DNA of 64,000 nt from Desulfurococcus sp. (GTDB lineage Archaea > Thermoproteota > Thermoprotei_A > Sulfolobales > Desulfurococcaceae), in NCBI GenBank assembly GCA_026626905.1, contig JAPNUX010000008.1, positions 62,001 through 126,000 of the forward strand, in the 5' to 3' direction. The notes beneath the pieces were generated by a model, which saw only the letters and a program-made list of their open reading frames with translations, was not told where the DNA came from and made no database searches. Below, in pieces: positions 1,567-4,877 of the stretch. A program made the position numbers and the translations under genes. Within the stretch, counting starts at the first letter, position 1. Every line of letters begins with the position of its first letter.

Positions 1567-2484
1567 ATGCACCTGGATACAACTGACCCGATCGTGAGGA
1601 AGGTATACGAGATATATGGGCCTGTTGTCGAGACTAGGCAGCCGGTTAGAGACCCTGAGGAGATGATCAGGGTTCTAAGAGAAGAGTTTAAGCTTATCGT
1701 TAAACCCTATGTTGTCTACATAACGTTATCTGCGTTCATAAATAATAGACCTGTCCTCTACGAGGGCCCCCCGGGAACCGGTAAAACTGAGATTGGTGAG
1801 GCAATACTATACTTGTGGAGCGGTAAGAAGCCCTTTGTACTACCCTGCAGTGAGAACTACGATGAGTACAGGGTTATAGGAGACTTCCATCCAGCTATGG
1901 CTATGGCTAAGGGATTCAATGAGGAGAGCTTTATACCTAGGCCTCTACTAGCAGGGCTGATAATGGAGGCAGGCGTCCTAATAGATGAGATCAGGAGGAG
2001 TAGCGAGGAGTTCCAGAACCTCCTCCTGGATATAATAGATAAGAGGAGGATCATTATACCGGAGCTCAAGAAGGTATACTATCAGAGCGGGATGGGATTC
2101 CAGGTAGTATTTACCAGCAACCCCTACGATATAGCTCAAGGAGAGTTGAGCGATGCCTTCCTCAGGAGAGTTGTAAGAGTAGAATTCCACTACCCGTCTA
2201 TACAGGAGGAGTACGAGATACTCAAGCTTAAGCTAGGCGATTTAAGCAGGAGGCTTGACGACAACATAGTCTTCAAGGCGCTCGAGGTAGTCAATAAGCT
2301 GAGGAGTAAAGCAGTCTACAAGCCAGGTATCTCCGAGACTGTTACATGGCTGACTCTTACAGCTTTAATCTCAGATATGAAGGGTAGGGAGAAAGCAAGC
2401 GAGGAAGATCTGCGCGAGGCGGGTAAAGCCGTCCTCTACAAGAACCCGGAGGATAGAGAGCTTGTCGAAGAACTCCTCGAGTAG
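1567..2484 (+). CDS. MoxR-family AAA+ ATPase
   Basis: 305-aa MoxR-type AAA+ ATPase. Seen: Walker A GPPGTGKT (residues 67-74), Walker B GVLIDEI with the following RRSSEEFQNLLLDIID, a sensor-1 region VVFTSNPYD, and SDAFLRR as the probable arginine finger. MoxR ATPases act with VWA-domain partners as chaperone-like remodelling pairs (RavA-ViaA, CbbQ-CbbO, NorQ-NorD). The next gene is such a VWA protein and overlaps or nearly abuts it, so the two should form one system. It stands between L2 and S19 inside the ribosomal operon. The client is unknown. Confidence 0.9.
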   Translation: MHLDTTDPIVRKVYEIYGPVVETRQPVRDPEEMIRVLREEFKLIVKPYVVYITLSAFINNRPVLYEGPPGTGKTEIGEAILYLWSGKKPFVLPCSENYDEYRVIGDFHPAMAMAKGFNEESFIPRPLLAGLIMEAGVLIDEIRRSSEEFQNLLLDIIDKRRIIIPELKKVYYQSGMGFQVVFTSNPYDIAQGELSDAFLRRVVRVEFHYPSIQEEYEILKLKLGDLSRRLDDNIVFKALEVVNKLRSKAVYKPGISETVTWLTLTALISDMKGREKASEEDLREAGKAVLYKNPEDRELVEELLE

Positions 2485-2488
2485 CAGT

Positions 2489-4378
2489 ATGGATGCGAGA
2501 AGCCTAGTTGACGAGGCTATCTCAAGAGAGATAGAGGCTTTAAAACCCAGGTTGAGCGAGCTAAGAGAGACCCCGGTCGACAAGCTTGTACTCTACGTTA
2601 AAATGAAGCTTGCACTTAAAGCACTAGCAAGAGATGAAGGCATCTTAGCTAGCCTAGAGGAGGCTCTAGCTGAGTCACTAGGCTTAAAGCTAAAGCATCC
2701 CGGGGGCTCCAGGGAGGGTCTTGTAGAGTACTTCCAGCCTGCAGAGAACCTCTGGAGAAGGCTGGGTAGAAGCCGTCGTTTAACAGCCAGCAGGCTGCTT
2801 AGTGAATCCTCTTCGAGGGATGAAGTGCTCACGTACATATGGTTGAGAAGAAGCGGAGTGCTTAAAAAGCGGTCTGATGGCTCGCTGATAGCGAGTAGAG
2901 TAGAGGCGCAGCGCTCTTTAAGCAATGAGAGGTGCGAGGTAGCCTTAGAGGATATAAGCCGCTACCTTAAAGAAGTCTCCAGTAGCCTCTGGAGTAAAGT
3001 GATAACTAGAAGCCTCCTCGAGAATGCTAGTACAAGCGAGCTTGTATCCCTAGCTGGAGAATACTACGGGTTTAATGCTAGTGTTGACGCAAGGATCACA
3101 GAGGAGTTAAGAAAACGGATTCTAAACGGGTGGAAGCCGGCTCCAAGCGACGCTAGAAGACTTGAAGACGCATTAAGAGATGCTCTTAAAGGAGTAACCG
3201 GCGTGGAAGTCCCCTTACATCTACTACCCTACATTGACACAGTAGAAGAGTACGTGGCTGCGAGAAGAGAGAGGCTAGCGAGAGAAATTGAGAGGCTGCC
3301 GTTAAAGGAGAGGTGGAGTATTCTGAGAAGCCTGAGAAGGAAGGTGAGAGACCCCGGCTTCTACGAGAGCTTAAACCCTATCACTCTAATGGATCTTAAG
3401 GGTCTCGGAGGCTTAAGCGAACCATTAGCAGGGAAGGTGGCTCTCGGCGAGGCCATAGGAAGCTATCTCGAATACCTTTTAACCGGGGATGCATCCTACA
3501 AGACTTACGCTCTACACGTAGCTGAAAGAATAGATGCTTCAATACTAGACCCCAGGTACAAGCCGATCCTTGAAAGCATAATTAACGGTGACGATGGAAG
3601 ACTTCTCTTCCTGCTTGGAAGGGAGATGAGTCTTGATGCACTCGAGTTAATATCGATTAAGCTTGGCGATGAGTACTCGAGGAGAGGGATTCTGGATCCA
3701 GTTCTAGTCAAGAAGGCCGTGGTACTAGGCCTAAGGCTCTTAAACTACATGAGGAAGAAAGCTGGCCTCCCGCAGAAGCGTAAAGCTGTAGGCGTGAAGG
3801 GGAGGCTGGAGGTCAGGGAAACCATGTATAAGTGGGTGAGATTCAACTACAATTCAGTCTTCAAGGGGCGGGTGAAGCGGAGGAGGCTTATAGGAGTAGT
3901 TGATGTCAGCGGTAGCATGGCTAGGTTCTCACTATGGTCTATTCTCTCACTTGCATTCACTCTACCTGCTACATCGCATGTAGTAGTCTTCAGCGAGGAG
4001 GCACGGGTCTACAAGCTTCCCTCCAGGAAGACTGTGGCTGTTCTCGCGGGATTCCTCGAGAAGCTTTACACTGAGGGCTTTAAGGGGTACACGAATATCT
4101 CTAGAGCGCTTAGAGTAGCCGGCGAGCTAGCATTGAAGACAGGCTCGAAAACCCTGCTCTTATTCAGCGACCTCAAGCAGACAGTGCCCGGCGAGGAGCC
4201 CTGGAGTGTTGCAGGCAGCCTGACTAGTAAGGGGTTAAGGATAGTAGCGTTGACACCCTACACTACTAGCGATGTAGTAGCAGAGAAGTACAGGAGTGCG
4301 GGATGCGATGTTGTAGCTGTAGAGAACCCCGAGAGCATACCGATTATTTTAAAAAGGAAGATTAGTCTTAAAAAATGA
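2489..4378 (+). CDS. VWA-domain protein (CoxE/ViaA-like), partner of the MoxR ATPase
   Basis: About 629 aa. A long helical, charged N-terminal region (roughly residues 1-460) has no fold I can name. A C-terminal von Willebrand A domain follows, with the complete metal site: DVSGSM near residue 472, Thr in KGYTNISRAL, and Asp in LLLFSDLKQT. The layout matches ViaA and CoxE-like partners of MoxR ATPases. The frame is also open from TTG 2462, 23 nt inside the ATPase gene; ATG 2489 lies 4 nt after the ATPase stop and is preferred. About 55 nt separate it from S19. Target and cellular role are unknown. Confidence 0.85.
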   Translation: MDARSLVDEAISREIEALKPRLSELRETPVDKLVLYVKMKLALKALARDEGILASLEEALAESLGLKLKHPGGSREGLVEYFQPAENLWRRLGRSRRLTASRLLSESSSRDEVLTYIWLRRSGVLKKRSDGSLIASRVEAQRSLSNERCEVALEDISRYLKEVSSSLWSKVITRSLLENASTSELVSLAGEYYGFNASVDARITEELRKRILNGWKPAPSDARRLEDALRDALKGVTGVEVPLHLLPYIDTVEEYVAARRERLAREIERLPLKERWSILRSLRRKVRDPGFYESLNPITLMDLKGLGGLSEPLAGKVALGEAIGSYLEYLLTGDASYKTYALHVAERIDASILDPRYKPILESIINGDDGRLLFLLGREMSLDALELISIKLGDEYSRRGILDPVLVKKAVVLGLRLLNYMRKKAGLPQKRKAVGVKGRLEVRETMYKWVRFNYNSVFKGRVKRRRLIGVVDVSGSMARFSLWSILSLAFTLPATSHVVVFSEEARVYKLPSRKTVAVLAGFLEKLYTEGFKGYTNISRALRVAGELALKTGSKTLLLFSDLKQTVPGEEPWSVAGSLTSKGLRIVALTPYTTSDVVAEKYRSAGCDVVAVENPESIPIILKRKISLKK

Positions 4379-4442
4379 ATCTAGTATGCTGTAATACTGA
4401 GTGCTTAACAGGTTTAAAGTGAATTAGGAGGGGTTGAGTAGC

Positions 4443-4877
4443 TTGGCGCTAAGCCCGCAGGAGATACCGGTTGAATGGAGGAAGTTTAAGTATAGAGGCA
4501 GGAGTCTAGAGGAGCTCTTAAGCATGTCCATGGATGAGCTAGTAAACATTCTTCCAGCGAGACAGAGGAGGAGTCTTAAGAGAGGTTTAACTAGAGCCCA
4601 GATAAAACTACTAGCAAAGATCAGGAGGATCCTCAGGAACCCCGAGCTAGCTAAGAAGGCTGTCATAAAGACTCATGTGAGAGACATGGTTGTGCTTCCA
4701 GAAATGGTTGGGCTTACTATAGCAGTCTACAATGGAAAGGAGTTCGTGCCTGTTAAGATCACCCCTGAAATGATAGGGCATTATCTGGGAGAGTTCAGTC
4801 CAAGCACGAAGAAGGTTACACATGGAGAGCCTGGGTTGAAGGCTACCAAGGCGAGTCGATTCATAGCAGTGAAGTAG
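4443..4877 (+). CDS. rps19: 30S ribosomal protein S19
   Basis: Archaeal S19, about 144 aa; it contacts the head of 16S rRNA near the A-site finger. EEIPVEW-type N-terminus, the [15 protein letters not shown] block and the [14 protein letters not shown] tail are diagnostic. Two TTG starts are possible. GGAGGGG (4427-4433) touches TTG 4434 but is 9 nt from TTG 4443, so 4443 is preferred. The gene resumes the canonical order L2-S19-L22-S3 after the MoxR-VWA insertion. Confidence 0.94.

Follow-up and report, generated by a model that had tools for sequence, protein, structure and literature searches.

The locus described here raises the question of why a MoxR-class AAA+ ATPase and a VWA protein should be encoded in the midst of a run of archaeal ribosomal protein genes. 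In the window (the whole stretch of 64,000 nucleotides of Desulfurococcus sp. DNA that was analysed), the ORF list and Pfam identify an L4 fragment (positions 3-506) and L23 (503-775), followed by uL2 (780-1502; Pfam Ribosomal_L2_C, 155.8 bits), a 305-residue ATPase (1567-2484; Pfam AAA_5), a VWA/MIDAS adaptor protein of 629 residues from its ATG (2489-4378; Pfam VWA_CoxE) and uS19 (4434-4877; Pfam Ribosomal_S19, 116 bits), all on the + strand. Downstream of uS19 lie L22, S3, L29, Rpp29 and S17, identified in the same way and again all on the + strand; L14, L24, S4e and L5, further along this strand, were assigned from position and similarity to relatives.

An earlier, sequence-only reading had placed the pair on one strand between L2 and S19, with a 4-nt gap between the two genes and some 60 nt on either side, and the measured distances bear this out. 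A 64-nt spacer (1503-1566, +; 76-106 nt in close relatives) separates uL2 from the ATPase gene, 4 nt separate the ATPase stop codon from the adaptor ATG, and a 55-nt spacer (4379-4433, +) ending in the Shine-Dalgarno-like sequence GGAGGGG leads into uS19. An alternative TTG start for the adaptor at 2462 would overlap the ATPase gene, and ATG 2489 is the likelier start. The same reading called the surroundings the S10 operon: the ribosomal protein operon is there, but uS10 itself lies outside the stretch read, and we therefore refer to the archaeal S10/spc cluster. The insertion is conserved in relatives rather than peculiar to the window genome.

The ATPase and its VWA adaptor

The ATPase scores 59 bits against Pfam AAA_5 (cut-off 22), and its alignment with orthologues (A1, 37 sequences) has a mean column identity of 62%. 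This alignment places the Walker A motif GPPGTGKT at residues 67-74 (1765-1788, +; invariant in the family), the Walker B motif LIDEI at 138-142 (1978-1992, +) and the sensor 1 motif TSNP at 183-186 (2113-2124, +), all of them invariant or nearly so across the family; FLRR at residues 198-201, after sensor 1, marks a candidate arginine-finger region. With an H2-insert-type AAA+ domain, Walker A and B and sensor 1, the ATPase and its partner belong to the broad kind of MoxR-class AAA+ proteins with a VWA partner. In other settings, AAA+ (COG0714)/VWA pairs have been described as forming a functional module of their own (a 2015 study, PMC5898192).

No NCBIfam family passes its curated cut-off for the ATPase. 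The best match, the MadB family (NF047784), reaches 85.4 bits, far under the cut-off of 475, and was rejected, as was GvpN (TIGR02640; 39.9 bits, cut-off 266.8). CbbQ_C (PF08406) is absent from the 11 Pfam families reported up to E = 1. The best single-domain PDB matches are NorQ and CbbQ, at about 30 bits. Midasin heads the PDB list because the bits of its several AAA domains sum; no single domain of midasin scores more than 19 bits, compared with about 30 for NorQ, and we do not regard it as a specially close relative. A defence system was likewise set aside, the one PADLOC match (mad8, 15.7 bits) being weak.

The adaptor matches VWA_CoxE (PF05762) with 47.8 bits (cut-off 26.4), a match that covers residues 440-618 as numbered from the TTG start. 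Its VWA domain (residues 467-629; 3887-4375, +; alignment A2, 40 sequences) carries the MIDAS residues D472-x-S474-x-S476 (3902-3916, +), T535 (4091-4093, +) and D561 (4169-4171, +), invariant in all 40 sequences. The active-site residues of the ATPase and the MIDAS residues of the adaptor are intact, and in the inspected loci a VWA gene with a complete MIDAS adjoins the ATPase gene in the same orientation. In one genome (G063, L071:5530-8572) the VWA frame is broken by a single in-frame TAA alongside an intact MoxR gene; sequencing error, frameshift and early decay are possible causes. The adaptor evolves fast overall: homologues from other genera share 17-38% identity with the window protein, the corresponding range for the ATPase being 52-86%. 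Codon usage places the ATPase gene (0.715) in the ribosomal protein range; the adaptor gene (0.655) lies below the median of the other window genes and is not ribosomal protein-like.

AlphaFold monomer models of the window adaptor and of an Aeropyrum homologue (mean pLDDT 69.6 and 84.1) consist of a helical N-terminal region, a strand-helix-strand segment and a VWA core. In the window protein the fast-evolving helical region is predicted to span residues 1-425 (2489-3763, +). The segment at residues 426-466 (3764-3886, +), just before the VWA core, contains the pattern GRLxVRxT...R... (R443 conserved in 97% and R451 in 95% of sequences) and belongs to the better conserved stretches of the adaptor. 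A finger of NorD, residues 403-448, enters the NorQ pore (PMC13036017), and this finger-in-pore binding mode has been proposed for MoxR/VWA couples in general and extended to Rea1 (PMC9976466). By positional analogy, the conserved adaptor segment, which occupies the place of the NorD finger, is a candidate pore-insertion finger.

Comparison of the VWA domain sequence with the PDB gave no useful match; by structure, Foldseek found the MDN1 MIDAS and NorD VWA domains among the matches. The top Foldseek match of the Aeropyrum adaptor model (L080:8145-10127) is Ro60 (E 8.4e-6, TM about 0.3, 12.5 Å rmsd), which combines helical repeats with a VWA domain and is found in a complex with misfolded pre-5S rRNA. 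At this TM score we did not accept Ro60 as a homologue.

Of the characterised systems, NorQ/NorD, a nitric oxide reductase activator, resembles the pair in its adjacent ATPase and VWA genes, in adaptor size (638 residues in NorD, 629 here) and in adaptor layout, with an N-terminal domain, a pre-VWA finger segment and a C-terminal VWA domain with a DxSxS-T-D MIDAS. However, where NorQ has the H2 motif GRXLL/IXXXXT (PMC13036017), inspection finds GDFHPxxA instead, invariant in the 37 orthologues, the ATPase has no CbbQ_C match, and the setting is ribosomal, with no NOR gene adjoining. RavA/ViaA and CbbQ/CbbO share the two-gene MoxR/VWA layout but show no specific sequence match and have other neighbours. 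Actinobacterial relatives of the MadB family are likewise ATPase-VWA neighbours, but they are non-archaeal and are paired with far shorter VWA proteins, most of them ORFs of 300-450 residues. Rea1/Mdn1 (midasin), the eukaryotic pre-60S remodeller, offers another kind of likeness, an AAA_5-type ATPase combined with a MIDAS VWA domain and a link to ribosomes, here through ribosomal protein genes. Yet it holds six AAA domains and the MIDAS in one polypeptide, whereas the window encodes a single-AAA protein and a separate VWA protein, and it acts on the pre-60S particle, whereas the window pair is linked, by genomic association, to a small-subunit protein. Elsewhere in the phylum, single-polypeptide MoxR-VWA fusions of about 600 residues (L253:4593-6389, L257:5687-7567, L258:4314-6164 and L259:3040-4833) form a prokaryotic parallel to the one-chain Rea1.

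In the literature on MoxR/VWA proteins, NorQD structures and archaeal ribosome biogenesis, as far as the accessible portions of these sources extend, we found no description of the pair, an absence that is not proof of novelty. The pair forms a MoxR/VWA clade of its own, anchored beside uS19 and seemingly undescribed in the searchable literature.

Distribution and the link to uS19

A profile built from the 37 ATPase sequences of A1 was searched across 229 genomes of the class. It recovered full-length or near-complete orthologues in 97 of them, single-copy apart from fragments (a tally of 99 carriers includes two fragment-only genomes), and almost all scored 475-555 bits, the next best score in the phylum (349 genomes) being 129. 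Carriers belong to families f1, f4, f6, f8, f9 and f10 of the window's order and to f12, f13 and f14 elsewhere in the class. The searched genomes of families f2, f3, f5, f7, f11 and f15 and of genera g3 (within f1) and g53 (within f6) lack the pair, which therefore does not meet a universal requirement or act as a universal assembly factor.

In the ATPase tree each family represented by several sequences forms one group (f8 with weak support), and the 10 groups require no more than the minimum of 9 changes; a clade of two genera in which the pair is unlinked has long branches. Since the ATPase groups follow taxonomy, the pair has been inherited vertically, with repeated losses. Genus g3 is nested within f1 with full support in a ribosomal protein tree, and nothing is inserted at the intact uL2-uS19 junction either in g3 (L181-L183) or in the f11 and f15 loci that were read (L188, L189). 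Thus, g3 lost the pair secondarily, and the empty junctions are natural deletions. That losses leave clean junctions implies that removal is easy.

The sequence-only reading would have been refuted by a random distribution with no link to ribosomal protein genes, and the survey did not refute it. In the 76 carriers with the ATPase and S19 on one contig and both positions listed, the two lie at most 7 kb apart in 74, across 9 families, with a median start-to-start distance of 2.85 kb; the two exceptions (G046 and G062, genus g33) have them 88-112 kb apart. Among the other carriers, 11 have the two genes on different contigs, mostly in fragmented assemblies, and 10 have no listed S19 position. 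Three genera of f6 (g33, and likewise g15 and g37) keep the pair unlinked from ribosomal protein genes. Within 5 kb of the pair in 50 inspected loci we found S19 in 46, L22 in 33, S3 in 32, L2 in 30 and L4 in 28, and no gene but uS19 lies near it in every one of the 9 families.

This proximity persists where the cluster has been rearranged. Families f6 and f10 have the pair directly before S19, L2 having moved off. The broken cluster of f8 leaves the pair 0.1-1.7 kb from S19, in either orientation, with L22-S3 about 5 kb away or further; in f4 S19 is inverted yet 1-2 kb from the pair; and in f13, where S19 stands alone among non-ribosomal genes, the distance is 3.8 kb. It is therefore uS19, not uL2, that is the constant neighbour, and the association is sharpened from the ribosomal protein operon to uS19. 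Among MoxR/VWA genes that are not orthologous, the nearest ones in the phylum, several of them single-polypeptide fusions, have non-ribosomal, unrelated neighbours. At the f13 loci (L173:13697-14116 and L175:3049-3396) uS19 lies apart from every other ribosomal protein gene searched and adjoins a thiD-like gene and other metabolic genes.

Several other genes recur beside the pair. Each is bound to particular lineages, and a universal third component was rejected. A small gene of about 110-160 codons stands head-to-head with MoxR in f8 and f4 (L050:10616-11098, +; also L054, L060, L063, L055, L064, L068, L071, L072, L053, L046 and L061), and may share a divergent promoter with it or encode a partner; neither of the two products tested matched a Pfam family above its cut-off. 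In f1 a possible, more distant relative has the same head-to-head placement, possibly at L042, L044, L074 and L075. Between uL2 and MoxR, two loci (L044:5227-5367, + and L045:5633-5773, +) encode a Cren7-like protein of 46 residues with a zinc-ribbon-like N-terminal CPxC start (Pfam Cren7, 51.8 bits for L044). In f9 this position holds a conserved protein of 80-84 residues (L052:10282-10527, L070:10158-10412, L073:5119-5364, L176:9657-9899), and ORFs resembling it adjoin ileS in f6 (L051:960-1211, L062, L066). In f6 a Cas4-like PD-(D/E)XK nuclease lies immediately upstream of MoxR, often after ileS (L051:4347-5018, L049:4642-5409, L062:10124-10813, L066:10857-11474, L177:9727-10536; assigned by Pfam on L051 and L049), with no CRISPR genes noticed nearby. 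A methyltransferase gene near the pair is confined to f8.

The uS19 hairpin

Within uS19, a hairpin at residues 95-109 (4716-4760, +) includes P106 (codon 4749-4751), which is kept in all 50 carriers examined. Loss of P106 was seen only in lineages that lack the pair: in 5 of 6 genomes of g3, 5/6 of f5, all 7 of f11 and 2/3 of g53. Other pair-lacking lineages (f2, f3, f7, f15 and one g33 genome) retain it, so that the ancestral hairpin does not depend on the pair. Bacterial uS19 has the same hairpin without the pair. Among 12 ribosomal proteins of g3, only uS19 shows several changes at sites that are at least 95% conserved in carriers (4/54, versus 2/472 in the others), and three of these four fall in the hairpin; such clustered changes may represent one event. 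Because the association between hairpin and pair comprises only 4 independent changes, it cannot reach significance (independent-pairs sign test, p = 1, without power). We therefore do not take co-evolution of the hairpin as proof, and retain as a suggestive lead that its change may be tied to loss of the pair.

Possible functions of the pair

The observations that bear on function are the conserved ATPase and MIDAS residues, the conserved pairing, the uS19-anchored synteny, vertical inheritance, and repeated losses with empty sites. As our main reading, to which we give a probability of roughly 0.4, the pair would remodel uS19 or the 30S head in the manner of NorQD or Rea1, the client being suggested by synteny. 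The MoxR-class ATPase would form a ring, plugged by the VWA protein through its pre-VWA finger, and ATP would drive the ring to twist or pull the adaptor. MIDAS and the helical N-terminus would hold the client, for which uS19 itself, or the 30S head containing it, is the likeliest candidate, and the pair might help to insert, proofread or refit uS19, or pull apart an assembly intermediate. Ribosomal protein-like codon usage in the ATPase gene and ordinary usage in the adaptor gene would be compatible with a ring that carries a single adaptor, and prove nothing. The ribosome-assembly role suggested by the sequence-only reading gains from the uS19-anchored synteny; against it stand the absence of the pair from several lineages, the three unlinked genera and the codon usage of the adaptor gene. 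In a more specific version, which we consider rather unlikely as a whole, two separate proteins would make up a ribosome remodeller of the Rea1 kind, specific to certain archaeal lineages and devoted to uS19 and the 30S head, with a uS19 hairpin constrained alongside the pair and free to change after its loss.

A serious rival, if on balance a somewhat doubtful one, is that the pair, in the usual way of MoxR/VWA systems, activates a client outside the ribosome such as a metalloenzyme, and borrows the strong, growth-linked expression of the ribosomal protein operon. The characterised NorQD and CbbQO pairs act on enzymes (PMC13036017, PMC9976466), distant relatives adjoin genes judged by eye to be of molybdo-flavo type (L260, L261) or corrinoid/methyltransferase-like (L252), and both the patchy distribution and the retention of unlinked copies in f6 fit an optional client. 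No enzyme gene, however, accompanies the pair across families, and expression alone fails to explain why uS19 is kept over other ribosomal protein genes after rearrangement, including the isolated uS19 of f13. Those same rearrangements make it quite improbable that gene order simply reflects inertia after a single insertion between uL2 and uS19. Ribosomal protein operons rearrange slowly, inheritance is vertical and uS19 starts the ribosomal protein cluster most conserved across archaea (PMC10833476), but uS19 and the pair stay close in f4, f8 and f13 even though inversion or breakage has parted uS19 from uL22-uS3, and the clean junctions indicate that the pair is easily removed.

The uS19 synteny would equally fit a pair that services ribosomes rather than assembling them, acting on mature ribosomes or translation factors in rescue, hibernation, repair of heat-damaged 30S heads or release of uS19 or uS13. 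Translation genes beside the pair in f6 (ileS, gatA/gatB and an ArgRS-like ORF, by eye) and a dispensability that matches an accessory role point the same way. So does the Ro60 match, Ro60 being a VWA protein of RNA quality control, but at 12.5 Å rmsd this match may reflect merely helices and a VWA domain, and we regard a servicing role as improbable.

MoxR/VWA systems are known mostly for activating enzymes and inserting metals, and MIDAS-linked AAA+ ribosome remodelling is known from eukaryotic Rea1. If the remodeller reading is true, the pair would be a small, hyperthermophilic two-protein analogue of Rea1 chemistry, tied to a single ribosomal protein gene across many families, and would add a candidate ribosome factor powered by ATP to a group in which few have been characterised. 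Its repeated losses within carrier families provide natural knock-outs.
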